Virus record (IMG/VR): IMGVR_UViG_3300030107_003883
Location: 1-56,206 of that record
Source: a virus
Direction: 5' to 3' (one strand)
Length of the DNA: 56,206 bases
Shown here: piece after piece, positions 4,327-42,594 of the stretch
Layout: the number at the start of each line of letters is the position of its first letter
Numbering within the stretch: position 1 is the stretch's first letter
The notes under the pieces: generated by a model
Databases searched by the model: none
Told to the model about the DNA's origin: nothing
The model's input: only the letters and a program-made list of their open reading frames with translations
Position numbers and translations under genes: made by a program

Positions 4327-4338
4327 CAAGGAGAGAAA

Positions 4339-4542
4339 ATGAGTAAAGATAAAGTAAAAGAAGCAGAAGTAGTAGAGCCAACAGCAGATGAAAAAGCACA
4401 AGATGCTATTAAGAATCTGCAGTTACAGCTAGAGGAACATAAAAAACAAGCTGATTATCATTCTACTATGGCAGTAAAAGCACAAGGTGCATTAGAAGTT
4501 TTATTACAATTACATCCGCAAAAGGAGCAAAGTGAAAGTTAA
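4339..4542 (+). CDS. Small acidic/helical hypothetical protein, 67 aa
   Basis: A good ribosome binding site (AAGGAG) precedes the ATG. The product is highly charged and predicted to be a single helix or coiled coil (residues about 17-60), with no Cys and no membrane segment. Its 3' end overlaps the start of the next gene by 11 bases, suggesting translational coupling. Function unknown; a small helical chaperone or assembly factor for the neighbouring adaptor or fibre would fit. Confidence 0.75.
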   Translation: MSKDKVKEAEVVEPTADEKAQDAIKNLQLQLEEHKKQADYHSTMAVKAQGALEVLLQLHPQKEQSES

Positions 4543-4813
4543 AGAACTTATGGAAAGGGTGGGCATGACTCAAACGGGTCGTGCCATAGCCTATATTAAA
4601 GATGGCCTAGATGAGATGAATATGTTAGCAGAAACTCATGTTACTACTGAACGTATTGATATAGCTAAAGATCAAAGGTTTTACGATCTACCTAACGATG
4701 TTATAAGAATATTAGATATTAGGTGTAAAAACCAAAGCAATAGCAGTGATGAGTATAGAAGTATACCTAGAACTGTTGCTCAACCAATAACGGAGGATGC
4801 AGATGGCGTCTAG
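4532..4813 (+). CDS. Adaptor-like protein, N-terminal half of a split gene, 93 aa
   Basis: The start is GTG at 4532 behind AAAGGAG. The sequence (RAIAYIKDGLDEMNMLAE, then RFYDLPNDVIRILDIRCK) resembles the N-terminal half of head-tail adaptor proteins, where a helical start is followed by a beta-strand region with a YDLP-type motif. The frame ends exactly where the next frame begins, and the two products read as consecutive halves of one protein. It may therefore be a split gene with two ribosome binding sites, a frameshift site, or a sequence error. Confidence 0.75.
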   Translation: MKVKELMERVGMTQTGRAIAYIKDGLDEMNMLAETHVTTERIDIAKDQRFYDLPNDVIRILDIRCKNQSNSSDEYRSIPRTVAQPITEDADGV

Positions 4814-5516
4814 TAAACATTACGCGTATTATATAAGAGGAAGTCAACTTGCAATTATAGAGCATGATAGTTCTTCTGGAGATGGGTTAAACTATGTAAC
4901 TGCAGGAGATGATGTAAATGATATTAATGATATAGGACCTTCTGGAAGTTCTTTATGGAAAAGCCCCACTGAAGCTATAGCAGATGGTATAGAAATAGAA
5001 TATGCTTATAGTCCTAGGTATTTTATAAATGAAACTGAAGATAAAAATACTGTTATAGATACTTACGTTTCTGTTGGAGGGTTGCTTAAGATTATAGATC
5101 AAGGAGATGATAATTATTCTGCAAGCCCAGAAAGTTTAAGCGATGGTAGTTATATAGTATTAAAAAAAGCTGGAAAGTTTAACGGCCTACATAAAGTTAA
5201 AGAAGCTGGTGCAGGTTATATTATTTTATATACTAAATATAGCGGCAGTGCTACTGTTCAAAAAGCATTTGAAGAAACTGTAGAATTATACTACAATGTT
5301 GATGCGTTGACGGATGAAGAAGATACAATAGATCTTCCAGAGTATTTAACTAAAGCATTAGTATACTATGTTAAAGCTAAAATAGCTGAAGATCAAATGG
5401 ATTTAGAAGCAAAAGAATACCTTATGAGAGAGTTCAGAAGGATATTAGAAAAACACGAAAGTTCAAAAGTTTGGGGTGCTAGACAATTAGGTGTTGGCCC
5501 TCACGGAATAAGATAA
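4803..5516 (+). CDS. Adaptor-like protein, C-terminal half of a split gene, 237 aa
   Basis: Two in-frame ATGs exist (4797 and 4803). The second is preferred because GGAGG at 4792-4796 lies six bases upstream of it. The product begins with HYAYYIRGSQLAII, a strand-rich continuation of the adaptor fold started by the preceding frame, and ends with a long helical segment (YLTKALVYYVKAKIAEDQMD) like those that plug into portals. It overlaps the preceding frame by 11 bases. The likely role is a neck/connector subunit acting with its upstream half. Confidence 0.75.
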   Translation: MASSKHYAYYIRGSQLAIIEHDSSSGDGLNYVTAGDDVNDINDIGPSGSSLWKSPTEAIADGIEIEYAYSPRYFINETEDKNTVIDTYVSVGGLLKIIDQGDDNYSASPESLSDGSYIVLKKAGKFNGLHKVKEAGAGYIILYTKYSGSATVQKAFEETVELYYNVDALTDEEDTIDLPEYLTKALVYYVKAKIAEDQMDLEAKEYLMREFRRILEKHESSKVWGARQLGVGPHGIR

Positions 5517-5527
5517 AGGAGAAATAA

Positions 5528-5821
5528 ATGGGACTACTAGAATTATCAGCAGCCCAAGCATTAAATGCTCAGTTAGGACAAGGTGGCTTAAAATATATAG
5601 ATCAAGCAGGCACTGCTAATACTGGCACAGCTTCTGCAGGTGTATATTATGTTGCAGTTACTGTAATAGAAACTGGGAGTATTGCAACAGAATCTGATGA
5701 CCAAGATTTATGGCCAGATACTACATTTGCTAGTATTCCTGCTGGAACTACAATTTATGGTAGATTCAATAAGGTTACTGTGTCTGGTAGTAATGCTACA
5801 GCTATATGTTATAGAGGTTAA
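5528..5821 (+). CDS. Small beta-rich virion protein, 97 aa
   Basis: An AAAGGAG site precedes the ATG. The product is Gly/Thr/Ala-rich with a predicted small beta-sandwich (GTTIYGRFNKVTVSG near residues 77-91). Such short proteins often decorate virions or attach fibres in marine podoviruses. No family is recognised. Confidence 0.7.
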   Translation: MGLLELSAAQALNAQLGQGGLKYIDQAGTANTGTASAGVYYVAVTVIETGSIATESDDQDLWPDTTFASIPAGTTIYGRFNKVTVSGSNATAICYRG

Positions 5822-5841
5822 ATAAATAAGGGAGAAGAATA

Positions 5842-6216
5842 ATGGCAACTAATTATGGACTGCAAGAGTTTTCTACTCAAGAAGCAGTAAACTTTGAAGC
5901 ATATAAAGATTGGAACACAGAGGTTTTAGACCTAGAGACTGGAGGAGCTTATCTTCCTTCTTCGTTTATAACAGCTGATAATCCAGCAAAAAAGATAGTA
6001 TTGTATATAGAACCTAATAATCAAGGTTTATCTTCGCTGGAAGTGAATGATGTACTTTCATTAAAGTTAAACGGTCAAGATGCAGCTAGTAAGATTATAA
6101 AGATAGATCCTAATGATTTACCTTTTACACTTACTGGTATACAGCTTACTTCTTTTGCTATTAAAAGCGAGAGTGGAGAAGCTAATGATCACATATCTTT
6201 ATTGAGCTTTCACTAA
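5842..6216 (+). CDS. Hypothetical virion protein, 124 aa
   Basis: The ATG at 5842 follows a GGGAGAAG site. The product is soluble and mixed alpha/beta, with no Cys. Its stop overlaps the next start (TAATG), so it is probably produced together with the coiled-coil protein downstream. Its position between connector genes and fibre genes suggests a structural or assembly role. Confidence 0.7.
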   Translation: MATNYGLQEFSTQEAVNFEAYKDWNTEVLDLETGGAYLPSSFITADNPAKKIVLYIEPNNQGLSSLEVNDVLSLKLNGQDAASKIIKIDPNDLPFTLTGIQLTSFAIKSESGEANDHISLLSFH

Positions 6217-20085: not shown

Positions 20086-23000
20086 ATGAGTGATAATATA
20101 AGAAAGCAAGCAGAATATTGGGGGCAACAACAGTCGCCTGACTTAAACTTTTTAAAGCAAAAATATAAAGATATGCAACCCTGGCAAGTTAAAGCTAGGG
20201 ATCCTCAAGCTTATAAAGCATTATATGAACAAGCAGCACCTGGTCCAACAGGTATAGCGGACTCTAATCCTGTAACAGATTTCCTTGGAAATATGGCATG
20301 GGCTGTAGGTGAAGAGATGACATTAGGAGCTTCACTAGGTATTGATTTATATGCAGGCGGAGAAGTAAGGGAAACATTAGGCGTTCAAGAATGGGCTGAT
20401 AACTCATGGGCTGGTAGACTTGGTCAAATAGCTGGTCAAGGTGTAGGTTTTATATCTGGTGTAGGACTTATAGGAAAAGGACTAGGAAAAGCTAGTGGTG
20501 CATTAAACTTAGGTCGTAAAGCATTATCTAAAGGAGCTGGTAAAAAGCTTAGATCTGAAACTGGAGAGACTTTAAATAAGATAGTAGGCGATGTAGATGA
20601 TGCAGTAATGAGAGACTTTTCTGAAGAACTATATCAGACAGGTGCAGTTGCTATTAAAACAGGTCAAGAAGCTGCTAAAGCTTTTGGAAGAACTGCCACC
20701 AAGGTAGATCCTTTCAGCAACTTTGACTTACAAGGGGAAATTAGTAAAAACTTTGATGAACTATTACTAGAAAATATTAAGAAGAATAAAAACCTTGGGG
20801 ATAATGTACGTCAGAATCTCTTAGATCCAGCAAATAAGGAGCTTAGAGACGAGATTAGAGATAATAGTATAAAAGCTGCACAAGAATTTAGATCTGAAGA
20901 TGTGCCACGTGTTTTGGCTGCTAAATGGAGTGGTGTTCTAGGTGATCACGGAGCTCAGGTTGCTGGAGATATGGCTTACGAAGCTACTCTTCTTGGTTTA
21001 CATGGTGGATTAAGGAACTTAGTTGAAAGGGGAGTGTCTGCAGGACTAGATATAGATGATGAAAACTATGGAAGAAGGTCTTTCTTTAGTGACGTAATGC
21101 ATGGTATGATAGTTGGTGGAATGTTAGCACCTACTAGATATATACCTGGAGGAGCTAGAGTAGAGGTAGACTTAAGTAAGGGCCTTGGAGGTGTTAGGTC
21201 TGGTGTATTAGCTAATGTAAAGCAAATGGGACAGTCTGTTATACGTAAATACAATGGCAAAAAAGCTACAGATTATACCCCTAAACAGCTACAAACTATG
21301 ATGCGTAATGTTTGGTATGGTTCTAATAAAAACACAGAGTTTTTCAGAGGTATAGAGGGCTGGACTCCTAGACTAGTAGAAGATGTAGGTATGTTAGCTA
21401 ATGCTACTAATGTTAAAGTATTGCAAAATGTATATAATAAAGTCTCTAGAGATCTATCTAAAAACCTTATACCTATGTTAAGAAGAGAAGTTGCTAGAGA
21501 TTTATTTGAATCTGCTCCTAGATATGTAGTAGGCTCAGCTGTTATGAATGCTCAGAACTGGTATCAGAACTATGATCATATCACTGCAGATCAGTTTATA
21601 ACAGATGCTGTAGTTGGTATGTTTTATATGAAAAGAGGTAAAGTATTAAGTGGAAAGCCACCACTTCCTAAGTTTTTAACTTCCAGTGATATTAAAGGTA
21701 ATGAAATAGCTAAAATGTCACAAGCATTTGATGTATTAGGCTATGATAAGACTCAGCTTGATTTTATGGGTAGTGCTTGGGATAAAGTATATGCAGATCA
21801 TATGTTAGGAGAAAGCATTATTCAGCGTGGTAAGGATACTATGCCTGATATACGTAATGCTAATGCTATACTTGAAAAAGATATGGTTCCTGCTACTGAC
21901 TATGTTCAGATGCTTAAAGATCCTACTTTAAAAAACTTTAACGAACAAATATCCTTAGAGTATACACAAAGATTATCAATGGCTAGTGATCTTAGGGCCC
22001 AAGGAAGAGAAGCTGAAGCTAGAAGAATGGAACTTAGTGCTAATGATTTATTAGCTAAGTCAGATATAGCTCAAATGCTAGTTAATGATCTTAACTTTGG
22101 AATGGTTGACAAGAATGTACAACCTATGACTAAAGATGCTGCTATAGAATTTATAAATAGAATGAGCAGTATAGAGCTTAATGGTAAAAAGTTAACTATA
22201 GATAATGTATCTGCTGAAATACAAAAGCTTCGTAAAGCTGCTGCATATAAGACTACATCTCAAATACAGTTAGCTATGGAAGACTATATTAAAAACTCTT
22301 TAGACGCTTTTGGCTTATGGGATGTATCAATGGAAAGTGCTGGAACTATAAACATCCACCCTAGCACTAAAGACTTGTTATTAAAGAAGTTAGCTAGTAA
22401 TGAAAAGCTTGGAGAATACTCTACAGCTATCATGGCATTACATGATGTATTAGAAATGGCTAGCAGAACAGGCGTTATAAGATTTACTGATACTGCTATG
22501 GCTTGGAAAGCAGAAGGTGGACAAAAGCTAACAGCAGAAAAGTTAAATAGAATAGCTGATGAGTATAAAATCAATACAGAAAGAATGCATGATCTTGTTA
22601 TGGGTACAGAAAATAGTGGATGGAGAGACCTTGTAACAAATAAAAGAACTAGTGAAGCTTTTATGGATGATCATATACTAGCTTCTACACCTATATGGCA
22701 TGCAATAGATGCTAATATGAAGCACTTACGTAATGATATAGGGCTACATATACTAACAGGTAAAGGTGGACAAGGAACAGAGCAAACTATAGCCTTACAT
22801 CAAGAGATAATGAATGACTTATTTAAAGGTAAGCGTAAGATTATATTGTCTGAAGAAGCAGGAGAAAGAACTTTAACTGATAAGCCACATCTTATTAATG
22901 TGTTAAATAACCTTAACAGGTCATGGCAGCTAACAGAAGGTGTTGGTAAGAGAGGTGTAACAGAGATACGCTCTAGTCAGTTAGAGGCTATACATGAAAA

Positions 23001-26000
23001 GCTTTCAAGAGAAGTAGGTAATGTATTTAGTGACAACAATGCATTCCAGGCTTTTAAAAACTATTTAGATAATACATATATAGACAATATACTAGGTGGT
23101 AGCGCTTCATATGGTGCTAAGAAAGCATTATCAAGTCTTATACAGGAAGGAAATCCTTTAGCTTTCACTGATCCAGTCACTAATAAACGTGTTATAGCTT
23201 CTGGTGAGGCTATTAGAACAGCTATATTAGGTTCTGAATATGGTATTGAAATGCAAAGAATGAACCCTGAGTTTGCAAGTGAAGTAAGAACTATGGTTGA
23301 TAGGTATATAAAAGAGATTGAAAGACCTGTTAAAGGCAAAGGAGACTACTTAGAATTTAGTGATAAGATTACAATAGATCAAACATCTCAGCATAACCCT
23401 AAAGACTGGATGCAATCCTTACTATCTATGGAAGCATTATTAGATGGTAGTAAAGTAGTTGATATATCTAGAGTTGTAAAGAATGTACATCTACTAGAGT
23501 CTATGAACAGTTCTTTTAATACAGCTGCACACTTTGAAAAACTAGCTCAAGTTGCAGATAATAAAATTACAGTAGAACAGCTCAGGGCTGCAATGGATGG
23601 GCTTAGAACTAATACTAGACAGTTATCTTATTTAGTTACTGATGCTATGCAGAATGGTGATTTCTTAATGATACGTCAATTAGTAGATGCTCAATATGAT
23701 ATACAGAGAGCTATAGATAGAGCTAAACAGTTTACTGCAGAGGGTAAAGGTAGTATAGAAGAAGTTAGCTCTACTATATATAAAGTAACTATGGAAGCTA
23801 TAAATGAGCGTAATAGAAAGCTTTCTTTAGATAGTGTAGAATCTGTAGATGAGTTTATTAGACGTCAAGAAGAGGTAGTCACACGTCAAGACAGGTCAGG
23901 TAAGCCTGTATTAGAGAGTCAAACTATATCTGAGAGTCAGTATAAAAGTAAGTATGGTATAGATCAGACATCTTTAGACCTTATTAAAGGGGATATGGTT
24001 GCATTTAGCAACACTGCACATGACCTGGCAGCAGAGGTTAGCAGTTTTATGAACAATTTCCCTGGCGTCAAGCAAAGACCTGATGCTATGAGAACTGTAT
24101 TAGAAAATTTAGAAAACTTAGGCATACCTGCTGATGCCTATATGTCTCAAATAGTAAAGCCATGGATAGAAACTCAATGGACTAAAGCAAAAGCCTTAGA
24201 TGATAAGCTTAATCGTGATACATTCTTGACTGATACTGCTCAACTACTAGTTAGTGCTTGGGCTCAAAAGAAAGTCACTCTAGGGAACTTTGAGAACGGA
24301 GCATTAAGACTATCAACCAAGTCAGTTACTAACTGGGATGCAGGATTCTTAGGCCTTATTAACTCTTTAGGCATACAGAATAAGCCTAACTCATTTATGA
24401 TAATGGGAGAGCAGTCAATAGCTGGTAATCGTACTGTTAATAAACTTAGCGAAACAATGATGCAAGAGATTAATGCTAAGTTGGCAGCGGGAGCTAATAT
24501 AAAAGTAGAAAGATCAGAGCTATTCTCTGCTAATGAACGTGCTGAATTGGAAAAAATGCTAAAAGATATGCCTATAGTTGGTGAAGGTGCTGATGGCAGG
24601 GCTCAATTCCAAGCATTCAGGCTAGATGAAAAGCAAGCTATTATATTATCTACTAGTACATATCCAGATATAGTTAATAGATGGCGTTCTAAAGGCGAAG
24701 GTTCATTGTTTAACGAGCTTTCTAAAGTTGTTGGAGAGACAGCAGCTAAGAACTATTTAGAGAAGTCTTTAAAGTTAAATGAGTTTAAGAATGATCAGAT
24801 AGATACTCAGAAGTTTACTACTGAAACTATAGAAGGTTTACTTTTAACTACAAGACTATTAAAAGATAATGCATTTTACTTAGATAAGCTGGTTAAAGGT
24901 GAAATGACTAGAGAAGAAGTGTTTAAAGCATTAAAGTACTTAAAGCTATCTAACCCAAGAGGTGGTATTACTTTAAATAAAAAGACTGTAGATATAATGA
25001 GGTACTTTACTAAAGAAATAATGCCTGATACACCTCAGTATAAAGATATAAAAAGACATTTTGAAGGGCAAATGAGTAGACCTCACAGGCAAGTTACATT
25101 GTTTGATGAAAAGGGCCCTAATGAGAACTTCTTTAATAGTGATGCAGAGTATAGAGCAAAGGTTAGAGATCAGTATGTAAATGAAAGAGGCTTTAGTGTA
25201 GAAGAAGCTACTAAGATAGCTAATGAGTTGGCAGATAAACTTGCACCTGAAGCTAAGTCTAAAGTAGATGGTGAACAATATTTAAGTTTACCAGAAATGA
25301 CAGCATTATTAACCTCTAGAGGGGCTGATGCCAGTTGGTTTGTATTTGATGCTAATAATAATGTAGTTGGCTTTAACACTATTATTAAGCCTGTTGTATC
25401 TCAAAGTAAGGTTAATCCTGATGGCTCTATGTCTGTAGTTATAAACAAGACAGCTTTCAAGTATGATCCTACTATGGATGCAGCTATGAAGAATGCTGAT
25501 GGTACATATTTTACAGATAGTATAGCATTTAAATCTGCTAGTAAAGTAAACCAAAGTAAAGCGTCTGCAGAAAGTCCTTGGGTTGAAAATGCAATACCTG
25601 TACAGACACCTACAGATGTCACTAAACCATGGAAGCCTCAAGTTGCATTAGATATTCAAAACCAGAATACAGCTGGAAGTAATATGAGAATAGCAAGTGT
25701 AGACAGGGCTAATATGATGCTTAAGTCTATTAGTGGTCCTCATGATGGCACATTAAGTATGGCTTTTGGTAACTTCTTATCTAATCCAGCACAAGATGTA
25801 ATGAACTCTTGGTTAAAATCTACTAATGCAGTTAAAGATTTAAGTCAGCACATGCAAGACCTATATCAGAATCCATTTGCTTTTAAAGCTATAGCTGAAA
25901 AGCTTAAAGGATTTGATAAAGAGACTGGAGATATAACAGCTAGTCTTACAGGTTTAGAGGCAGTATTATCCGAAGGTGGTATACCTATATATGAACACTT

Positions 26001-29000
26001 GAGACCTCAAATAGAGAGAGCATTAGTTGGTAACTATTTAGGCTCTAGAAACTTTGCATCAGGCAATATAGAAAATGGTGCATATAATGTTATGACTGCA
26101 GCAGACGGACTTAGTCTTCCAGTAAGAGAGAATGGCATGCAATCAAGATTTGGTGGTAGCGGTATACCTCATGCAGAGTCTAATAAAAATATTAGAACAA
26201 TGTTAAGAGATCCAGGTGGTACTGAAAGCGTATCTCTTATATTTAGAATAACAGAGTCTCAAGCTAATGCATTAAATAAGGCTTTTAAAGCTAAGTCTGA
26301 GGTTAAAACAGATATATTTAAAGCAGGTGATGAACTTATAGCATCTGGCGATGGTTCAGTATCAGGTACATTTGATGGCATGTTAAATAGAATCTATGGC
26401 TCTAACCTTGAAGGCTCTTACGGTCCAGGACGTAGAAATGCTATAATGGATAGACAAATATCATCTGAGATTGTTCAAGACCTTATAGGTAAGAACTATA
26501 AAGACATTATACAGGAAGCATTTGAGTTAAAGCATTCAGATGGAGCTGATAAAATACAGACTTTAGGTGAACTTGTAAGGTTTGTAGATGGTAAGCCTCT
26601 TAGCGCTGTTGAACGTCAAAATGAAAAGACATACTTTGAAGACTATACTATCACTGATGGAACAGGTTCAATGGCACAAAAACATGGCTATCAATCTGTT
26701 CGTGTTGCTGATGTAAACTTAAGAACTCCTAAGGATGGTATTAATAGTTGGGTTATAACTGGTATAGAAAAGCTTATAGACAGGCGTAAAGGTGCCGTAA
26801 GCGAAATGAACAGTCAAGACCTTATTAATCCTCAGGATGCTGACTTTGATTTAGATAAATCAGCAAGCTTCTTTGGAACACCAGGGCCTATCTTAAAAGA
26901 AATACATGCTGCATCAGGATACCATGAGATATCGTCAGAAAGAATATGGGATAAAGCATTAACTGAAGTTAGTTATGAAATGCCACAGATGAGCTCATAT
27001 ATAAATGAGTTAAAGAACTTAGAGTCTGCTAGGCCAGTAGTTGTTAGACAGCATTCTTTAACATCTTTAATGTATCAGTACTTTACATCTTTAGATGGAC
27101 TAGCTCAAAAGAATCTTATTAGACCTGGCTATGAAACAGGTATACATAGAGATAAATATGGCGTAGACAGAGTATCTCAAAGTACCCCAGGTACTAACGT
27201 TGTAATAGATTTTCAAGCTCCAAGTAATAGAACTAAATATCAGATAGCATTTAGACATGGTGGAGAGTTTGTTGACGCTATAGGGCATATGAAGAAAGTT
27301 ATTAAGCATACTATAGATACTTACGGTGATCTTACTAAGCTTAACGATAGAAATATGATGGAAGAGTTTTGGTTCAATGATAACTTTGGACTGTTTAAAG
27401 TTGTAGAAACAGAAGGCTTTAATGCTGGTAGAGAAGTTGGCTGGAACAATTCAGTTGCTGAGATAGCACAGTTTAAAAAACAGATTAAAGATGGGTTCTT
27501 GAATCCTATGAACAAGATCTTTAATCTAGGCCTAGGCGTTGAAACATTAAGTGATGGTACAAGTAGAAAGCTTGGCTTTTATGACTATGTATCTACCTTT
27601 GAAAGAGCTAGGTCAGACATGTCACGTACTGCTGAGTTTAATAAAGAGTTAAAACCTTTTATTGATAACTTTTTAGGGTTCTTAGGTGAGCGTCCAGGCG
27701 CTGCAGGTACTAGTAATCATCCTTTAGTTGATGGTCTTATTAAAATGACTGAAGCTCATAATAAAAACTTTCCTATGCGTATAGAGCGTGGCAATGAGCT
27801 AGGCAATATGCTTAACGGAGCTGCAGTAGATGTTAAGAGTGTTGAAGTTCAAAATGCTATCAATAAGTATATGCAGAACGAAAAGAATTGGGTTCGCTTT
27901 AGCTCATTACAATGGGAAGTAAATCAGCTAGAGAATACATTAAATGACATGCGTGCACGTAGGCAGGACAAGACTAGGCAGTATGAAAATATGGAAAAGC
28001 GTAAGCAAATGTTAACTGAAACATTAGGCCAGGTAGAAGTAATAGCTAATGATAAATTTGTTAGAGAGTCTACTCCAAGAAGAAGGTCAGGTCAAATGGC
28101 AGAAGCTGATGCTAACTATGCAGTATATAAAGTAAGAAATGGTGATGTTAAAAGCGTAACAAGAATTAGTAAAGGAGATAGGTTCTTTTGGAATGCTGGT
28201 GATGTTGTTGTAAAGAATCCTAGAACATTTAGATTCACTGATCCTATACAGCAAAAGCATTTACGCACAATGCATAGAGCCTTTGGTAATTTACTAACAG
28301 GAGTTGAAAAGTTTGATGTTGCAGACAGCAGAGGATATGTCAGGAGTAAGATAAATGATATTAAGCAAGAGTTTTATAATATAGACACACAGTTCTCTGA
28401 TGCATCTGTTAGAAACAACAGTATGTATAAAGATATATATAGCACAAAATTAGAAGCTCTAAAAACTTCGTTTAACGACATAATGATAGCAAGGGGACCT
28501 CAGTATGCTAAGCAGTTTTTACATACGTTATTGACCCCAAGAGTGTCCAATTCTGAGATGTCTATACTAGGTTATGATAATAAGAATGAGTCTTATTACT
28601 CAGGCTTTAGATTTCAGAGTAATAAATCTAGTGAACAGATGGTTATGAGGTTCATGACCGCGGCTATGGATGGTAAAGTATCAGGATTTAATAAAGCTTT
28701 AGCAAAAGAATGGTTTGCAGAAATAGAACAAGCTCGTAAAATAGCCTACCTGATGACACATGATAAATCATTAAGTGGTGATGCATTTAAGATAGGAAAT
28801 CTAGACAGAGGTCTTAATCCTAGCTTTGATGTGTTACCTAGAACAGATGCTAAGCCTAAGTTATTAGATGTCAAGGCTAATAATGAACAGGCTCGTAAAA
28901 CTATACAATCATATCTTACAGGGTCATACTTTTTAGATCCTATAGAACTGTATAGATTAACAGTAGGTCTAGATAAGACAATGAATGAAATGCCTAGCCC

Positions 29001-29205
29001 TCAGTTGATGGGTGATCGTGTTAAAAATCTATGGACTGATGTAGGTAAGAACTCAAATACTATAGAAGTTAAAGAAGATCTAGGTAGGGCAGTATATAGA
29101 ATGTCTAAAGTACCTATTGAGAATAGTATGAATGGCAACAGAGAACATATAAGACGTAAAACATTTTCAGAGAAGCTCTGGGAAGAGATGAACTGTAATA
29201 ATTAA
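20086..29205 (+). CDS. Giant 3039-aa ejection protein with RNA-polymerase-like DFDLD catalytic motif
   Basis: This is the largest gene of the window (9.1 kb). Residues about 100-160 contain a Gly-rich hydrophobic stretch (GQGVGFISGVGLIGKGLGKA) that could help membrane passage; most of the rest is helical. At D2253-F-D2255-L-D2257-K the sequence is NPQDADFDLDKS, preceded about 45 residues upstream by an (R)TPKDGINSW element. The arrangement R-x-P ... N/S ... I ... P ... DFDxDK is that of the second double-psi barrel of crAss-like virion RNA polymerases, whose three Asp bind the catalytic Mg2+. The inferred role is a virion-packaged, ejected transcription enzyme for the early genes. The first barrel with its conserved Lys was not identified by eye, so the call is probable rather than certain. 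Confidence 0.65.
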   Translation: MSDNIRKQAEYWGQQQSPDLNFLKQKYKDMQPWQVKARDPQAYKALYEQAAPGPTGIADSNPVTDFLGNMAWAVGEEMTLGASLGIDLYAGGEVRETLGVQEWADNSWAGRLGQIAGQGVGFISGVGLIGKGLGKASGALNLGRKALSKGAGKKLRSETGETLNKIVGDVDDAVMRDFSEELYQTGAVAIKTGQEAAKAFGRTATKVDPFSNFDLQGEISKNFDELLLENIKKNKNLGDNVRQNLLDPANKELRDEIRDNSIKAAQEFRSEDVPRVLAAKWSGVLGDHGAQVAGDMAYEATLLGLHGGLRNLVERGVSAGLDIDDENYGRRSFFSDVMHGMIVGGMLAPTRYIPGGARVEVDLSKGLGGVRSGVLANVKQMGQSVIRKYNGKKATDYTPKQLQTMMRNVWYGSNKNTEFFRGIEGWTPRLVEDVGMLANATNVKVLQNVYNKVSRDLSKNLIPMLRREVARDLFESAPRYVVGSAVMNAQNWYQNYDHITADQFITDAVVGMFYMKRGKVLSGKPPLPKFLTSSDIKGNEIAKMSQAFDVLGYDKTQLDFMGSAWDKVYADHMLGESIIQRGKDTMPDIRNANAILEKDMVPATDYVQMLKDPTLKNFNEQISLEYTQRLSMASDLRAQGREAEARRMELSANDLLAKSDIAQMLVNDLNFGMVDKNVQPMTKDAAIEFINRMSSIELNGKKLTIDNVSAEIQKLRKAAAYKTTSQIQLAMEDYIKNSLDAFGLWDVSMESAGTINIHPSTKDLLLKKLASNEKLGEYSTAIMALHDVLEMASRTGVIRFTDTAMAWKAEGGQKLTAEKLNRIADEYKINTERMHDLVMGTENSGWRDLVTNKRTSEAFMDDHILASTPIWHAIDANMKHLRNDIGLHILTGKGGQGTEQTIALHQEIMNDLFKGKRKIILSEEAGERTLTDKPHLINVLNNLNRSWQLTEGVGKRGVTEIRSSQLEAIHEKLSREVGNVFSDNNAFQAFKNYLDNTYIDNILGGSASYGAKKALSSLIQEGNPLAFTDPVTNKRVIASGEAIRTAILGSEYGIEMQRMNPEFASEVRTMVDRYIKEIERPVKGKGDYLEFSDKITIDQTSQHNPKDWMQSLLSMEALLDGSKVVDISRVVKNVHLLESMNSSFNTAAHFEKLAQVADNKITVEQLRAAMDGLRTNTRQLSYLVTDAMQNGDFLMIRQLVDAQYDIQRAIDRAKQFTAEGKGSIEEVSSTIYKVTMEAINERNRKLSLDSVESVDEFIRRQEEVVTRQDRSGKPVLESQTISESQYKSKYGIDQTSLDLIKGDMVAFSNTAHDLAAEVSSFMNNFPGVKQRPDAMRTVLENLENLGIPADAYMSQIVKPWIETQWTKAKALDDKLNRDTFLTDTAQLLVSAWAQKKVTLGNFENGALRLSTKSVTNWDAGFLGLINSLGIQNKPNSFMIMGEQSIAGNRTVNKLSETMMQEINAKLAAGANIKVERSELFSANERAELEKMLKDMPIVGEGADGRAQFQAFRLDEKQAIILSTSTYPDIVNRWRSKGEGSLFNELSKVVGETAAKNYLEKSLKLNEFKNDQIDTQKFTTETIEGLLLTTRLLKDNAFYLDKLVKGEMTREEVFKALKYLKLSNPRGGITLNKKTVDIMRYFTKEIMPDTPQYKDIKRHFEGQMSRPHRQVTLFDEKGPNENFFNSDAEYRAKVRDQYVNERGFSVEEATKIANELADKLAPEAKSKVDGEQYLSLPEMTALLTSRGADASWFVFDANNNVVGFNTIIKPVVSQSKVNPDGSMSVVINKTAFKYDPTMDAAMKNADGTYFTDSIAFKSASKVNQSKASAESPWVENAIPVQTPTDVTKPWKPQVALDIQNQNTAGSNMRIASVDRANMMLKSISGPHDGTLSMAFGNFLSNPAQDVMNSWLKSTNAVKDLSQHMQDLYQNPFAFKAIAEKLKGFDKETGDITASLTGLEAVLSEGGIPIYEHLRPQIERALVGNYLGSRNFASGNIENGAYNVMTAADGLSLPVRENGMQSRFGGSGIPHAESNKNIRTMLRDPGGTESVSLIFRITESQANALNKAFKAKSEVKTDIFKAGDELIASGDGSVSGTFDGMLNRIYGSNLEGSYGPGRRNAIMDRQISSEIVQDLIGKNYKDIIQEAFELKHSDGADKIQTLGELVRFVDGKPLSAVERQNEKTYFEDYTITDGTGSMAQKHGYQSVRVADVNLRTPKDGINSWVITGIEKLIDRRKGAVSEMNSQDLINPQDADFDLDKSASFFGTPGPILKEIHAASGYHEISSERIWDKALTEVSYEMPQMSSYINELKNLESARPVVVRQHSLTSLMYQYFTSLDGLAQKNLIRPGYETGIHRDKYGVDRVSQSTPGTNVVIDFQAPSNRTKYQIAFRHGGEFVDAIGHMKKVIKHTIDTYGDLTKLNDRNMMEEFWFNDNFGLFKVVETEGFNAGREVGWNNSVAEIAQFKKQIKDGFLNPMNKIFNLGLGVETLSDGTSRKLGFYDYVSTFERARSDMSRTAEFNKELKPFIDNFLGFLGERPGAAGTSNHPLVDGLIKMTEAHNKNFPMRIERGNELGNMLNGAAVDVKSVEVQNAINKYMQNEKNWVRFSSLQWEVNQLENTLNDMRARRQDKTRQYENMEKRKQMLTETLGQVEVIANDKFVRESTPRRRSGQMAEADANYAVYKVRNGDVKSVTRISKGDRFFWNAGDVVVKNPRTFRFTDPIQQKHLRTMHRAFGNLLTGVEKFDVADSRGYVRSKINDIKQEFYNIDTQFSDASVRNNSMYKDIYSTKLEALKTSFNDIMIARGPQYAKQFLHTLLTPRVSNSEMSILGYDNKNESYYSGFRFQSNKSSEQMVMRFMTAAMDGKVSGFNKALAKEWFAEIEQARKIAYLMTHDKSLSGDAFKIGNLDRGLNPSFDVLPRTDAKPKLLDVKANNEQARKTIQSYLTGSYFLDPIELYRLTVGLDKTMNEMPSPQLMGDRVKNLWTDVGKNSNTIEVKEDLGRAVYRMSKVPIENSMNGNREHIRRKTFSEKLWEEMNCNN

Positions 29206-36170: not shown

Positions 36171-36692
36171 TTAGAAGATAGGAGCCTCTACTTGTTCTGT
36201 TGTGCCATTAGCAGGAGCAGGTGTAGATCCGTCTTTTACATAATCTGTATAATACTTCTCTGCACGCCCTTTCCAATAGTCAACATCATTTTCAGTAAAT
36301 TGCTCAATAATGTTCTTAAACTCAGTTGGTGCACATTGCTTTAAAGCACGTGTGTATTCACCATCTTTATGAAAGTATACATTAAGCTCTTTCCCTGTTA
36401 AATGACTAGTATCATCATCAATCTTAACAACCACATTTCCATCTGGTCCGTCAAGTCCATCAGTAATACCAGCGTTAGCAAATCTAAAGACTTGTCCTAT
36501 TGCGAACTCTTCTCCATTGCTGCCTTTCTTTTCATAGACTCTCATGGTAAAGTTCTCAGGATAGTCGTTAAACCACACATCTAAGAATTTAGTGCCATTA
36601 TAGTCACCGTACTTCGCTTTTGAAACAGTAAGTGTATGCCAACCAGTTGTATAGTTAGTACCACCACCTTTTTTTACTGTGAGTGTTCTCAT
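36171..36692 (-). CDS. Single-stranded DNA-binding protein-like, 173 aa
   Basis: The start overlaps the stop of the Sak4-like gene (ATGA), with GGAG upstream. Residues about 10-110 are beta-rich with aromatic positions typical of an OB fold (GWHTLTVSKAKYGDYNG, LDVWFNDYPENFTMRVYE). The C-terminus is Glu-containing and ends APIF, resembling the partner-binding tip of bacterial SSBs (…DIPF). Recombinase-SSB adjacency is standard in phages. The call rests on pattern and context; no full family match was made. Confidence 0.7.
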   Translation of the reverse strand: MRTLTVKKGGGTNYTTGWHTLTVSKAKYGDYNGTKFLDVWFNDYPENFTMRVYEKKGSNGEEFAIGQVFRFANAGITDGLDGPDGNVVVKIDDDTSHLTGKELNVYFHKDGEYTRALKQCAPTEFKNIIEQFTENDVDYWKGRAEKYYTDYVKDGSTPAPANGTTEQVEAPIF

Positions 36693-37438
36693 TTAGTTTC
36701 TCCATTTACTAGTGTTTGCAAACTATAGGTCTTACCTGAACCTGGTGAACCTATTATTAGTACTTTAGCTCCATCAAAGCCCTTGTCACGAGCTGCTGAT
36801 ATAACTTTACCATAATCTTGGTCCATTTCAGCTTCTAATAAGCCTGTTCTATCCTTAGCATGATCATATTTTTCACTACGTGCAGTAACCCATAGATACT
36901 TTCTATTAGTTCCAGATACTACAGTTTTAGTATAAAATACAAAATCAAACCACTTGCTGATATCGTCTTTACTACTGCCATCTATATAAGGTATAACCTT
37001 ATTTCCATCATCCATTGTTTGAATTTTAGAATGACAGTTGCATATTACTATACCAGGGATTTTACTTACGAATGATAGAGCTCCATCAAGTTTATTCTTT
37101 AATTGACCCCATCCTTGTAACTTCATTTTACCATCTTTGTCAGATAGTTCTCTCATATACTTCTTAGATAACTCTGAGAATGTATCCAGAACTAAAGCAT
37201 CAATCTTGGTATCAGTTTGTGCTGTAACAACTGAGCGTTGTTCATCTATTTCTAGATCACCAATATTAACTTTAACAGTTTTGGTCTCTTCCTTATACAG
37301 CTTACCTATAGTATTTTGAAATTGACTAAAGGTACCAGGCTGCATGACTGGAAAGCCAAACTGCTTGTGAATATATTCTTTTGATCCGAGAGTTTGAGAA
37401 CCATGTTCTAGATCGAACATTAGTGTTTTCATGCGCAT
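36689..37438 (-). CDS. Sak4-like RecA-type ATPase with C-terminal P-loop (circular permutant), 249 aa
   Basis: A start at 37438 is chosen because AAGGAG lies just upstream; the longer frame to 37471 lacks one. The elements of a Sak4/RecA-like phage recombinase are all present but rotated. The protein opens with KTLMFDLEHG (residues 4-13), which normally follows the P-loop helix. Walker B is ALVLDTFSEL (81-90), later strands include VICNCHSK and YLWVTARSEKY, and the Walker A motif GSPGSGKT is at 230-237, only 12 residues from the end. Joining the C- and N-termini restores the normal order. It would promote single-strand annealing or recombination with the SSB encoded next to it. ATPase family is well supported; the permutation is read directly from the sequence. 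Confidence 0.85.
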   Translation of the reverse strand: MRMKTLMFDLEHGSQTLGSKEYIHKQFGFPVMQPGTFSQFQNTIGKLYKEETKTVKVNIGDLEIDEQRSVVTAQTDTKIDALVLDTFSELSKKYMRELSDKDGKMKLQGWGQLKNKLDGALSFVSKIPGIVICNCHSKIQTMDDGNKVIPYIDGSSKDDISKWFDFVFYTKTVVSGTNRKYLWVTARSEKYDHAKDRTGLLEAEMDQDYGKVISAARDKGFDGAKVLIIGSPGSGKTYSLQTLVNGETK

Positions 37439-37455
37439 TTCTCTCCTTTTGTTGC

Positions 37456-37471
37456 GTGGTAAATATACCAC
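37456..37471. promoter_or_regulatory. Hairpin/palindrome upstream of the Sak4-like gene
   Basis: GTGGTA and TACCAC form a 6-bp stem around a 4-base loop, directly before the ribosome binding site (AAGGAG) of the ATPase gene. It could be an operator or an RNA hairpin that controls translation. Confidence 0.45.
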
Positions 37472-37822: not shown

Positions 37823-38476
37823 TCATATCTTTCTTAGCATCATAGTAGGAAAATGAAAGCTAAAGTTACTATTAAACGGTTCATCGGTTATGAACTTGCG
37901 AACGGAATTAGCAATAAAGCTTCCACTCATATTTGAGCAGTAACTTGTTGCTTTAGCGTTGCAAGGCTCCTCATCCCCTTGTTCATCAGAGTACCAATGT
38001 TTTTTATATTCAGCAAGTGTTGGCTTTTTGAATATATATTGTTGATAGTGTTCAGCTCCCATTCTCCCGTCTATGATGCATTTTGGCTTAGTCGTAGGGT
38101 TAGAGCATATTGTAGTGACCGCTTCCAACCTTGACCCCATCGAATCAAACCCTAGTATGACTATGTCATTATGATCCTGGAAATAGAATGTATCAAAGTC
38201 ACCATGATGAGTATCTATTACAAGTTCTCGACTTATATTTAATAAATGGCTCTTCAAAGCATTAACTTTGTTACTGCCAATATCTCCTTGAGTATACTGA
38301 GATACTCCGATATTAACATCTTCTACTATATCACGATCATATAGATGAAAATATAGTCCACCCATACGTGCCAATTGAGTGGCTGCGGCACTCCCGATAG
38401 CACCGCAACCTAGTATATGAAATGTGTAGTCATATACCCCTGTGAATAATCCTTCATTTCTTGCTGTTAAGCTCAT
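37823..38476 (-). CDS. E1/ThiF-like ubiquitin-like-protein activating enzyme, 217 aa
   Basis: The start at 38476 overlaps the JAB gene stop (ATGA), and the first residues (MSLTARNEGLF) match usual E1-like starts. The Rossmann nucleotide site is ILGCGAIGS (G23, G25, G28), followed by the acidic YDRD pair (D47, D49), N55, K70, and the GFDSMGSR loop (D111). In this family these bind ATP and adenylate the C-terminal Gly of a ubiquitin-like or sulphur-carrier protein. Two Cys near the end (C172 and C180 in PCNAKATSYC) are candidates for thioester formation or metal binding. It is the last gene of a cassette with a ubiquitin-like protein, an E2-like protein and a JAB peptidase. The family is firm; the substrate is inferred from context. 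Confidence 0.9.
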   Translation of the reverse strand: MSLTARNEGLFTGVYDYTFHILGCGAIGSAAATQLARMGGLYFHLYDRDIVEDVNIGVSQYTQGDIGSNKVNALKSHLLNISRELVIDTHHGDFDTFYFQDHNDIVILGFDSMGSRLEAVTTICSNPTTKPKCIIDGRMGAEHYQQYIFKKPTLAEYKKHWYSDEQGDEEPCNAKATSYCSNMSGSFIANSVRKFITDEPFNSNFSFHFPTMMLRKI

Positions 38477-39384
38477 ACTCCATACCCCCATCCTATACCA
38501 GCTTGATCTAATGTGTCGCCTGTTTGCTTATTTACAACAAAGTCTGATGGCATAGCATGTAATAAAGATTCAAGAGCATTTTCTACTACAAGAGTTACTT
38601 CATATATACTTTTACTATCTACAAGCTCTTTATTTAAATCATCTATTGACATTTTATAAGCTGCATAAGTCATTGATCCTGCTACTACTTCAGATATAAC
38701 CTCGTCAACTTCTTCAAGGATTTCGAAATATGTCTTTGGCTTACCAGACAAGCCTGTCTGACCAGCTGTGGTATGAAAAGGGAGTCGCTCTTGGCGAGGG
38801 TCCTCCGCAGCTTCTTTAAGCAGATCAGTATGATTTCCATTATTCTTTCTCCATGAATAACCTGTATATGTAGGAACTTTATATTCAGGCTTAGTACACA
38901 TTGCTGCTACATTCTCTTTAATCTTTTTGCTTATACGTGCTTTAGGATTAATTATAGTTAGATCAACATCTTCATGTACTTCTACAGGCTTCCATACAGA
39001 TACTCTAAACTTATATTCTTCCTTAAGGTTAACAACTAAGGCAAATGAGAAATCTCCTTGATCATATTCTTTTATAGCTGTTAAATCTGTGCCAGACCAG
39101 AATGCGTTCATTGTATGATGACTATGCCACCAACAAAATCTAAAGTTCTTTTTACCCAATCTTTTAGCCTCTTTAGTATAATATATAGCTAGCTCATCTT
39201 TATCAAGTACAGTATTCCCAGCGCTTATAACTTGCTTAAGTATTACAGGGTTTTCTAAATGCCAATCACCATCTTTATCTTCTACCATTACAGACATTCC
39301 ACCTATTTCAGATTGATGCTCTGTATGGGCTTCTTCTGCGTATCCCAGGATAGTATCCCAGTCTTTCTGTTTTATGTAAAACAT
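38473..39384 (-). CDS. JAB/JAMM metallopeptidase (deubiquitinase-like), 303 aa
   Basis: AAAGGAG lies 7-8 bases before the ATG. All JAMM residues are present: catalytic Glu26 (SEIGG), then HSH (H87, H89), Ser97 and Asp100 in the exact H-x-H-x7-S-x2-D spacing. Such enzymes use zinc to cleave isopeptide or peptide bonds after the C-terminal Gly of ubiquitin-like proteins. The C-terminal half (residues about 150-303) is helical and not part of the core fold, and may bind partners. The stop overlaps the E1-like start. Likely jobs are trimming the terminal Gln of the ubiquitin-like protein at 41646-41852 and removing it from targets. No NlpC/P60 domain is present, unlike lambda-type tail JAB proteins. 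Confidence 0.9.
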   Translation of the reverse strand: MFYIKQKDWDTILGYAEEAHTEHQSEIGGMSVMVEDKDGDWHLENPVILKQVISAGNTVLDKDELAIYYTKEAKRLGKKNFRFCWWHSHHTMNAFWSGTDLTAIKEYDQGDFSFALVVNLKEEYKFRVSVWKPVEVHEDVDLTIINPKARISKKIKENVAAMCTKPEYKVPTYTGYSWRKNNGNHTDLLKEAAEDPRQERLPFHTTAGQTGLSGKPKTYFEILEEVDEVISEVVAGSMTYAAYKMSIDDLNKELVDSKSIYEVTLVVENALESLLHAMPSDFVVNKQTGDTLDQAGIGWGYGV

Positions 39385-39535: not shown

Positions 39536-41536
39536 CTATAAGTTATTTGCACTACCATTTCTAATAGCCCATTGAATAGTTCTTTCTTCTATTGTCATTT
39601 CTGCTTCAGGTGTTGTTGTTTGAACAGGTGTACGAGGAACAGATGTCGCAAAAGGATCATCATCTATTAAAGTATCCAAAGGGTCAAATGGAGTTCGATC
39701 TAATATATCATTAGCTTCTTGCTCTATTTGATTTATTTGATCTTGAGTTAGCTCAGGATTATCAGGTACAGGTGGAAGTTCAACGTTATAACCTATTACA
39801 TTCTCTCTATTCCATTCAAAATCACTTGTAAGATCTAAGTATACATTTTCATAGAAATGTTCAAAGTTAACAATAGGCATATTGCAAAGATTTCTTAGCT
39901 TTCTTCTATAAGTAGGTGTATCTTCTAATTCACCACCTGGCTCTCTACCTTCTTTAGCAAGCCATCTTATAATAACCCTATGCATTCTGATATAGTTATT
40001 ATATGAATCAAATATTCGCTCTCTAGTACGTGGAGTTGTCCATAAGCTATCTTCAATAGAATCTATATAGACATCATTCTCAGTAGACAGTATATTATCT
40101 TTAATAGAAAGTTCTAGCATTATACCAAGAATACCTTCTTCTTCAGGTGTCTTATCATCCTTTAATGTAAGAGATATGTTATTATACTGCTCACAATTAG
40201 TGTTAAAAGTACACTTTGCACATGGAAGATTAGCATCAGTTATATGATTATAATATTCTAATTTTCTATTTAAATATTCTTCAGCACCTATAGTATAACT
40301 ATTAGTATTGCTTATACGATAGCTATGATAAAATACATTTCTAGCATGATCATGTGCTTCATCAAATAACTTGCGACTTAAGTTACAACTTAACAATGTA
40401 TTATAAGTATAATTGCCATTTCCTTCAAAGAATGTTCTATATACAATATCATTATCACCTGATTCTGTTAAGAATGTATCAAATACTATGTTTCTGCCAT
40501 GAGACTTACTATAACTTATCCTATTTAAAGGATTAGTTTGAGGTACATAATAGTTTGTAGCCCATCCTACAAGAGTAGTTATATGTGCTAATATATCTAC
40601 ATTCATAATAGAAGCCCTTATTGCATTTTTCATACTGCCAAGACATACATTACCAGATTTTACATCATCACCAGCATAGTATCTATATTTATCATCACCT
40701 TGACTTATATATGGATGTCTATTTAGTCCAAAAGAATCTAAATATAAAGCTTCTAAGAAATGAGTTGCATTACTAGGAGGTGCAGCTTGCAAGAACTCTT
40801 CTCTTCCCCAATGTCTACTTATCAATGGTAATAAGAATACTCCTGATGCAATATATACGTCACCTATAGTATGGTTAAATCTTTTAGTTTCATTTCCTAT
40901 TATTATATGAGTACGCATATTTGCATTCTTTATTTTTACCATAAATAATACAATATAATCCCTTGTTTCAGATACATCACTAGGACCTATAAAATGAGCA
41001 TTGCCTCCATAGCTATATTGTCTTCTTAACATAGCTTTATTAGCACAAGTTTCCATTACTCTACATTGTATTTCTACATGAGGATACATCTCTTTAGCTA
41101 CCTCTAACTGACTGATAATACTAGACTTAACCTTGTCAAACTCTTCTTCAAATTGATCTGTATTATCCTGCCATTTGATGCCGTTAGACTTTAAGTCCTT
41201 TAGTTTATATTCAAGGCTTAACAAGCTTGATTTAAAACCAGACTCTCTCCATCTATAGTCTTGTATTCTTTTAAAGATAGACTCTACACCTCTTGGCTTC
41301 ATATCGTGCCTTAATACATGTTCGTTATAGGCTCTTTTTATTTCATTATAACCACCAGGTTTTAGAGTAAAGCTTTTAGATACACCTAAATTACAGTTAT
41401 ATCTTTCTTTTAATGTTTCTAAAGCCTCAATAATTTCTCCTTGAGGTCCTACAAGTATATTATCAATCAACTCAGACACATTACATTCAAATGTTTCTAT
41501 GTCCACAGAGTTTGCTTCTATCATTTTAAAATTCAT
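39536..41536 (-). CDS. Large E2-like (ubiquitin-conjugating-like) protein, 666 aa
   Basis: The ATG at 41536 has GGAG six bases upstream; an upstream in-frame TTG (41548) lacks this. Residues about 1-170 are helical. At 274-340 the sequence reads RHPYIS ... SGNVCLGS ... ITTLVGWATNYYVPQTNPLN. This is the E2 active-site pattern HPNIY ... G-x-(I/V)-C-L ... PxNPLN, with candidate catalytic Cys298. Bacterial E2-like proteins of the PRTRC-B/Prok-E2 type show the same short motif. The C-terminal half contains a C-x2-C-x5-C cluster (LPCAKCTFNTNC) that may bind zinc, followed by an acidic Pro-rich tail. It would accept the ubiquitin-like protein from the E1-like enzyme and pass it to a target. It is much longer than ordinary E2s (about 150 aa), so it may include target recognition. 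The E2 call is by motif and operon context. Confidence 0.7.
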   Translation of the reverse strand: MNFKMIEANSVDIETFECNVSELIDNILVGPQGEIIEALETLKERYNCNLGVSKSFTLKPGGYNEIKRAYNEHVLRHDMKPRGVESIFKRIQDYRWRESGFKSSLLSLEYKLKDLKSNGIKWQDNTDQFEEEFDKVKSSIISQLEVAKEMYPHVEIQCRVMETCANKAMLRRQYSYGGNAHFIGPSDVSETRDYIVLFMVKIKNANMRTHIIIGNETKRFNHTIGDVYIASGVFLLPLISRHWGREEFLQAAPPSNATHFLEALYLDSFGLNRHPYISQGDDKYRYYAGDDVKSGNVCLGSMKNAIRASIMNVDILAHITTLVGWATNYYVPQTNPLNRISYSKSHGRNIVFDTFLTESGDNDIVYRTFFEGNGNYTYNTLLSCNLSRKLFDEAHDHARNVFYHSYRISNTNSYTIGAEEYLNRKLEYYNHITDANLPCAKCTFNTNCEQYNNISLTLKDDKTPEEEGILGIMLELSIKDNILSTENDVYIDSIEDSLWTTPRTRERIFDSYNNYIRMHRVIIRWLAKEGREPGGELEDTPTYRRKLRNLCNMPIVNFEHFYENVYLDLTSDFEWNRENVIGYNVELPPVPDNPELTQDQINQIEQEANDILDRTPFDPLDTLIDDDPFATSVPRTPVQTTTPEAEMTIEERTIQWAIRNGSANNL

Positions 41537-41645: not shown

Positions 41646-41852
41646 TTACTGACCACCAGTCTTATTACTATTTACATTAGCAACAATGTCCCCATCTTGC
41701 AATTGATAGTCATCTGACTGATCTGTTGCATTTACAGCTACACTTGACCCAGCAGGCATATCAAGTTCAGTTCTTAATGAGCCTATAGTTTGACTAGTTA
41801 CTACTTTTTCAACGAATCCACCGCCACTAAGTACTTTTATTGTTATTGACAT
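41646..41852 (-). CDS. Ubiquitin-like beta-grasp protein ending in Gly-Gly-Gln, 68 aa
   Basis: GGAGG in the end of the preceding gene serves as ribosome binding site, and the ATG directly follows that gene's stop. The sequence has the ThiS/MoaD/ubiquitin pattern: strand ITIKVLSGGG, helix start TIGSLRTEL, strand SSVAVNAT, then the signature LQDGDIVANV and the C-terminal tail KTGGQ (G66-G67-Q68). In this superfamily the di-Gly is adenylated by an E1. The extra terminal Gln would have to be removed first, a likely job for the JAB peptidase in the same operon. Gene order (Ubl, E2-like, JAB, E1-like) supports a conjugation tag rather than a sulphur carrier for cofactor synthesis. Confidence 0.85.
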   Translation of the reverse strand: MSITIKVLSGGGFVEKVVTSQTIGSLRTELDMPAGSSVAVNATDQSDDYQLQDGDIVANVNSNKTGGQ

Positions 41853-42035
41853 TTAAGCCTCCTTATTGATTGTTTCTTTATTACGAAGCGCTTTCCATGC
41901 ACTCTTAGGCATATATTTCGCTTCCTGTTTATTTACTACCTTCTCAGCGTCTTCATCACGTACCCGCAGCAATGTACCTACAGGTAATCGCTTCCAATAC
42001 TGTGAATTTTCTACTACAGTTTTAATTGTTTTCAT
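41853..42035 (-). CDS. Small basic protein directly upstream of the Ubl, 60 aa
   Basis: The product is Lys-rich (YWKRLPVGTLLRVRDEDAEK, then AKYMPKSAWKALRNK) with a predicted small beta-helix fold; proteins with a similar RDEDA(E)KVV...Y.PKS.W pattern are common short phage proteins of unknown role. The stop abuts the Ubl start, so both are made from one message. It may be a partner, adaptor or substrate of the conjugation cassette, or an unrelated neighbour. Confidence 0.7.
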   Translation of the reverse strand: MKTIKTVVENSQYWKRLPVGTLLRVRDEDAEKVVNKQEAKYMPKSAWKALRNKETINKEA

Positions 42036-42105: not shown

Positions 42106-42594
42106 CTACTCTTCATCCACACTAGGATAAGTACATTCTTTTGTCCAGGTATTGGGATCGCCTAGTCCATCTCCATCAAGATCAAGGTACCACATTGTTG
42201 GTCCCTCGCCATTACAGACCCCACATTCATCTCGCCAGTTTTCATAGCAAGTATCATCTTTATCATCAGAGTTTGTGACCCATCTTCCTCTTTCGAGTGG
42301 TTGACTTACATGGAGATCAGTGGTATATTCGTCACCATTCCACCAAAATGTATGTCCCTCACCCTTAGCACGATGTTGTATTCTGAACGCTTCAACAAAT
42401 GGCATATCATCCAAGTTTATCTGTACAGGATCAACGTGCGTATATTTAAACATAGAGTGATCAATTACAGGCTCTTCTTCCATTTGTTTAGCCTTATTTA
42501 ACACTCTGTTAGTTATATTACTGTTATCTTTTGCTTCAACATCACTACATCCCACAAATATCATCATTACTATCATTAATAGATTGCTTCTCAT
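42106..42594 (-). CDS. Phage lipoprotein with CGVCNG/DxDGDG motif, 162 aa
   Basis: The N-terminus is a lipoprotein signal peptide: a short basic start, a hydrophobic stretch, and the lipobox FVGC, so the mature protein should begin at Cys15 and be anchored to a membrane. Near the C-terminus is DECGVCNGEG followed by YLDLDGDGLGDP, a Ca-binding-like repeat seen in secreted proteins of marine bacteria and related to the Cys-rich repeat in the virion gene at 15294-16880. An early-expressed phage lipoprotein is often used for superinfection exclusion or receptor masking; that role is inferred. AGGAG-type sequence precedes the ATG. Confidence 0.8.
   Translation of the reverse strand: MRSNLLMIVMMIFVGCSDVEAKDNSNITNRVLNKAKQMEEEPVIDHSMFKYTHVDPVQINLDDMPFVEAFRIQHRAKGEGHTFWWNGDEYTTDLHVSQPLERGRWVTNSDDKDDTCYENWRDECGVCNGEGPTMWYLDLDGDGLGDPNTWTKECTYPSVDEE

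Follow-up and report, generated by a model that had tools for sequence, protein, structure and literature searches.

The window, a virus record of 56 kb (56,206 nucleotides), encodes on its minus strand a putative E2-like (UBC-fold) conjugating enzyme, P0001 (39536..41536). Read from its ATG, the open reading frame comprises 666 residues and a stop codon; a TTG four codons upstream would extend the protein to 670 residues. The N-terminal domain (residues 20-123, 41168..41479) carries the conserved pattern GPQ...TKxFxWxPGxYD and is helical in our structural model, as the initial annotation had proposed. It is followed by the predicted UBC core (40517..41167), in which the full-length model shows the order helix, sheet, HPYI, cysteine, helices. 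An E2-like core had originally been placed at residues 170-380; the core is present, but its limits are better drawn at about residues 124-340. Residues P275-Y276-I277 of the HPYI motif (40706..40714) occupy the position of the eukaryotic HPN motif, and the predicted catalytic residue, Cys298 (40643..40645), lies in the context SGNVC298LGSM. Beyond the core are the cluster C439-x2-C442-x5-C448 (40193..40222), a probable metal site, and Cys384 (40385..40387), probably its fourth ligand. The protein ends in a variable acidic tail, closed by the motif EERxxxWA... (residues 646-666, 39539..39601). The length of the reading frame, Cys298 and the C-x2-C-x5-C cluster are all as first described, and so is the acidic, proline-rich tail, with 16 D/E and 8 P among its 76 residues (591-666).

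The main evidence for the function of P0001 is provided by the adjoining genes on the same strand, which encode a ubiquitin-like modifier (Ubl), a JAB/JAMM metalloprotease and an E1-like enzyme. The 68-residue Ubl (41646..41852) is a predicted modifier by its β-grasp sequence and its C-terminal Gly-Gly; its match to ThiS (E=0.006) stays below the cut-off, which is exceeded by the homologue in locus L017. It terminates in KTGG-Q, and Gly66-Gly67 (41652..41657) is the predicted activation point once Gln68 has been removed. All 50 of 50 Ubl homologues have K-x-GG followed by 0-60 residues, like the ubiquitin precursor, and those of L019-L021 stop exactly at GG. A conserved 60-residue reading frame directly upstream (41853..42035, minus strand), which has homologues ahead of the Ubl in 10 fetched loci, is possibly a further cassette member in the subgroup of the window. 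We also observed a lipoprotein-like reading frame of 162 residues with a Cys-rich C-terminal half (42106-42594), homologues of which precede the Ubl in about 20 loci, and, between Ubl and E2 in two loci (L037, 2588-3448; L038, 2083-2958), a radical-SAM-like protein (CxYCYMRR) that resembles spore photoproduct lyase.

The metalloprotease (303 residues, 38473..39384; Prok-JAB E=7e-5, just under the cut-off) is predicted both to trim and to deconjugate the Ubl. Its JAMM motif, H87-x-H89 ... S97-x2-D100 (39085..39126), is intact in 70/70 homologues at H87, H89, S97 and D100, and E26 is found in 68/70, with gaps in the other two. The E1-like, ThiF-fold Ubl-activating enzyme (222 residues, 37823..38491; ThiF PF00899, E=2e-16) overlaps the stop of the protease gene with its start by 19 bases. 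The residues that adenylation would require (GxGxxGS, R11, D52, N60, K75 and D116) are all conserved in 74/74 homologues, as is the predicted thioester cysteine, Cys177 (EPC177NAKAT, 37961..37963), which is also invariant in the E1s of crAss phages and FpV4. Phage E1s score 137-225 bits, as against at most 77 for cellular ones; in a tree with cellular ThiF, CBASS Cap2 and multi-Ubl E1s the groups meet in long branches and monophyly is not settled.

Direct searches with P0001 were empty: there was no match in Pfam, PHROGs or NCBIfam, none by tblastn in annotated phages and none by peptide-pattern searches in viral contigs. The family could be reached only with the E1 as bait, which gave 19 loci in viral contigs; an E1 alignment then gave 341 relatives, of which the best 80 formed the locus set for our survey of the cassette. 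The resulting E2 alignment was too diverse to serve in pattern searches; it had no match at a meaningful E-value among PDB sequences, and a Pfam search of 44 P0001 homologues at E ≤ 0.1 returned no E2 family, UQ_con included.

These 44 non-redundant homologues, from uncultivated phages, are 427-690 residues long and highly divergent (median identity 19%). Even so, C298, P275 and W325 are invariant in 44/44, so that Cys298 passes the check by homologue alignment suggested in the initial annotation, and P336 is kept in 44/44 or 43/44, depending on the alignment. In the HPYI motif, P is present in 44/44, Y in 40/44 and I in 41/44; the position of the HPN asparagine is thus Tyr in 40/44, and Phe in the other 4/44. 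Eukaryotic E2s have HPNI...GxICLD, to which the HPYI...YGSVCLD of some phage homologues comes close. Among the cluster cysteines, C442 is conserved in 43/44, C384 in 40/44, C448 in 39/44 and C439 in 37/44; all four occur together in 35/44, whereas C384, C439 and C448 are jointly lost in three, a pattern that suggests a single metal site. G30, P31 and Q32 of the N-terminal domain are found in 39-40 of the 44 and G61 in 40/44, while W656 of the C-terminal motif, which follows the poorly conserved tail, is kept in 32/44. Judged by mean top-residue frequency, the N-terminal domain (0.41) and the Cys cluster (0.40) are the best conserved parts, followed by the C-terminal motif (0.32) and the core (0.29), which are conserved too, unlike the linker and tail (0.11-0.13). 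Given this conservation, the sequence features of P0001 are not due to chance.

The fold of the core was addressed by structure prediction. With a pLDDT of 68, confidence in the full-length P0001 model is medium; the model gave mixed structural matches, which include the TSG101 UEV (Z 4.7) and Ubc12 (Z 4.4); a Foldseek search with it was uninformative, and the portal proteins it returned had probabilities <0.1 and were set aside as noise. The evidence for a UBC fold, with which the full-length model is consistent, comes from the predicted core of a homologue (L086, 202 residues) rather than from P0001 itself. This core, modelled with 42 relatives including the core of the window's own protein, reached a pLDDT of 92 and a pTM of 0.88. 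Foldseek matches were weak (E ≥ 0.2), with the UEVs of TSG101 and Vps23 among the structural matches, so that the fold assignment depends on the second-look comparison to PDB structures, in which 50 of the 50 listed matches were E2 ubiquitin-conjugating enzymes (Z 5.7-7.2; alignments over 121-135 residues, the domains having about 150). Since all Z-scores lie below 8, the assignment is carried by the homogeneity of this list and the position of HPYI and the cysteine, not by any single score. As modelled, the core of the P0001 family is a UBC fold with the cysteine in the active-site loop, the outcome anticipated when P0001 was first annotated as E2-like. The similarity to eukaryotic E2-25K/UBE2K (2bf8; Z 7.2, 129 residues, 3.5 Å) extends over the whole domain and HP-x-I before the cysteine is common to both; however, the phage E2 differs from eukaryotic E2s in having no sequence-level match to them, Tyr for the Asn of HPN, long insertions, and additional N- and C-terminal domains.

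All four cassette genes are found in 50 loci (41 non-redundant) among the best 80 of the 341 relatives, with the active sites of Ubl, E2, JAMM protease and E1 all kept. The order Ubl-E2-JAB-E1 recurs across loci; L085 has the E2 ahead of the Ubl, and in L010, L011 and L014 a 3.3 kb insertion encoding a Cys-rich protein of 239 residues lies between E2 and JAB (2754-6069). Median pairwise identity is 19% for the E2, 37% for JAB, 40% for the Ubl and 57% for the E1; the E2, diverging fastest, is thus the part that adapts, whether in response to targets or because constraint is lacking. Replication genes are adjacent in almost all loci. In the window, the cassette adjoins genes for a primase-helicase, an SSB-like protein and a Sak4/ERF-type recombinase, the Sak4-like recombinase (36689-37471) lying next to the E1. 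Across loci, the genes downstream of the cassette include the primase-helicase in 82, the SSB-like protein in 53 and Sak4 in 31, and ERF takes the place of Sak4 in many others, so it is the recombinase that is swapped while the cassette stays. Of the loci selected by the primase alone, 27 had 4.5 kb of upstream sequence; 25 of these contain the E1, and the other two (L130, L132) lack all four genes, which indicates that the four genes are acquired or lost together and that almost every sampled member of the clade has them. In its place, L130 (4705-9400) and L132 (4700-9410) encode a DUF932 protein (PF06067, E 1e-46 in L130) and an uncharacterised protein of 325-342 residues, which could be a functional substitute. 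We rejected ERF as the replacement, as it also occurs alongside the cassette, as an alternative to Sak4. A scan of genome contigs with the E1 alignment revealed no prophage copy.

A parallel cassette exists in cultured phages. The window E1 finds matches in 80 annotated phages, most of them Crassvirales or Flavobacterium phages; the usual annotation of the matching genes is 'thiamine biosynthesis'. In crAss001 (gp79-gp76; L005, 5262-9672), Kolpuevirus, a bajarodcaudo virus and FpV4 (further loci L002, L003, L004, L177, L178), a Ubl-like protein, a protein with an invariant cysteine, JAB and E1 follow each other in this order, within the replication module and beside primase and uracil-DNA glycosylase. 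Their E1s are 28-32% identical to that of the window, and their Ubls differ in that K-S-G-[AG] is followed by a long C-terminal extension. The protein in the E2 slot has 379-444 residues, with YMHSH and Cys198 invariant in 16 sequences; comparison with the window E2 family in hhalign gave no link (E 0.01-0.2, probability under 5%), so homology of crAss gp78 to the P0001 family is unsupported, even though cysteine aligns with cysteine.

Taken together, P0001 very probably acts as the E2 in a ubiquitin-like conjugation cascade that the phage encodes in full. The JAMM protease would trim the residues after the Gly-Gly of the Ubl. Here only Gln68 is left to remove, which counts against the cascade reading, as do the absence of a sequence match to any E2 family and the Tyr in place of the HPN asparagine. 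The E1 would adenylate the Ubl C-terminus and take the Ubl onto Cys177, from where it would move to Cys298 of the E2 and on to target proteins; the JAMM protease could also remove it from them. The N-terminal domain and the four-cysteine cluster most likely serve to dock E1 or Ubl; target choice may depend in part on the variable tail. With docking domains and a variable tail on the E2, a separate E3 may be unnecessary. The location beside primase-helicase, SSB-like and Sak4/ERF genes makes a role in phage DNA replication or recombination the likeliest use. Candidate targets are replication proteins of the phage or the host, or host factors that would be blocked at an early stage.

A combined E2/E3 role similar to that of BIRC6 or UBE2O is possible: we found no E3 gene in the cassette of the window, and the N-terminal domain and Cys cluster are conserved at least as well as the core. 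Their conservation, however, is no less compatible with docking of E1 or Ubl than with recognition of substrates. That the large uncultivated clade and, with their parallel cassette, the human-gut Crassvirales use a replication-tied, near-core Ubl cascade whose E2 contains its own E3-like substrate-recognition modules is a proposal we make only tentatively. In about a dozen loci (L029, L030, L033, L034, L037-L039, L045-L047, L070) a protein of 61-91 residues with two CxxC pairs overlaps the start of the E2, and in L084 and L087 it is encoded elsewhere. Its gene is not present in the window, which rules it out as a required E3 here.

The conjugation system may be real and yet be directed at host immunity, tagging immune proteins or competing with CBASS- or Bil-type conjugation of the host. 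The E2 is by far the fastest-evolving protein of the cassette (19% identity against 57% for the E1), as in an arms race, the same enzyme classes are used in bacterial defence (PMC10097602), and the E1 matches PADLOC models of CBASS E1-E2 proteins in the adenylation domain. But rapid divergence also fits a large E2 under loose constraints, and a cassette present in 25 of 27 loci, within the replication module of two distant phage groups, is unlike a patchy accessory locus. We regard counter-defence as a possible but unlikely function.

The 'thiamine biosynthesis' annotation of the crAss E1s points to a different kind of chemistry, in which a ThiS/MoaD-like carrier and a ThiF-like E1 would thio-modify a nucleoside or metabolite, with the large protein as the modifying enzyme. 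The Ubl does resemble ThiS, the E1 is a ThiF homologue, and JAB, ThiS and ThiF are known from gene clusters linked to sulfur metabolism (PMC1779556). Yet, in contrast to the true thi operon in L171, the surroundings of the cassette, where the reading frames were identified in part and hold recombination, SSB-like, primase-helicase and unassigned genes, showed no recognisable sulfurtransferase, desulfurase or thiazole synthase; and the large protein has a predicted UBC fold and an invariant cysteine. Sulfur transfer is thus very improbable. Scarcely credible is a non-catalytic, UEV/RWD-like scaffold, with transfer by the E1 or another protein: UEVs of TSG101 and Vps23 are among the structural matches and the HPN asparagine is missing, but to our knowledge UEVs lack the catalytic cysteine, and Cys298 is retained in 44/44 at very low identity, in the catalytic position of E2s after HPYI and before a helix.

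Among known systems, the cassette resembles Bil operons, which unite BilA (Ubl), BilB (E2), BilC (JAB) and BilD (E1) in one operon for anti-phage defence and have no E3 gene. BilA, BilB and BilD are named in PMC11354881. Unlike Bil, the cassette is carried by the phage itself, near-universally in its clade and beside replication genes; its E2 is larger (427-690 residues), with N-terminal domain and Cys cluster, and its Ubl has a single domain. In stand-alone genes for Ubl, JAB, E1 and E2, it is similar to the PRTRC system and to the uncharacterised operon type 6d, with stand-alone Ubl, JAB, E1-like and E2-like genes (Iyer et al. 2006; PMC1779556), from both of which it differs by its place in a phage core genome and its large E2. 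NCBIfam PRTRC models scored far below their cut-offs (PRTRC_ThiF 27 bits, E 2e-6, against 145; PRTRC_A 14 against 102), and those for PRTRC E2 or Ubl had no match in the window cassette. Type II CBASS Cap2/Cap3, for which the thioester has been demonstrated experimentally (PMC10097602), shares the E1, E2 and JAB chemistry; however, cGAS serves as the modifier there and Cap2 fuses E1 to E2, whereas the window encodes E1 and E2 in separate genes and has a true Ubl containing GG. The cassette has no recognisable nucleotidyltransferase; in a PADLOC scan its proteins matched E1-E2 models, in the adenylation part, and JAB models only, and neither the E2 nor the Ubl had a match. Operons of these four components have been known from bacteria since 2006, and lambdoid phages were noted there to carry Ubl and JAB only (PMC1779556). 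We found no published description of the phage cassette in the open literature, outside which subscription journals largely lie; no such conjugation system is described in the genome paper of crAss001, in a large survey of crAss phages or in a review of jumbo phages.

Most ubiquitin-like conjugation known from prokaryotes is found in bacteria, and the systems that have been tested protect against phages. In the present case it is phages that carry a full Ubl set, in hundreds of contigs and as near-core genes of their replication region. Cultured phages of the Crassvirales and of Flavobacterium hold a parallel form annotated as vitamin synthesis, which makes crAss001 and its like tractable systems for asking what viruses tag and why. 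The divergent phage E2 family should also be useful for tracing the origin of ubiquitin signalling.

The plus strand of the window encodes a terminase, which shares at most about 25% identity with the terminase of podovirus-like relatives, as well as portal-like and capsid-like proteins, both read from the sequence. It further contains an open reading frame of 3039 residues (20086-29205), followed by one of 950 residues, which are possibly virion-borne proteins.
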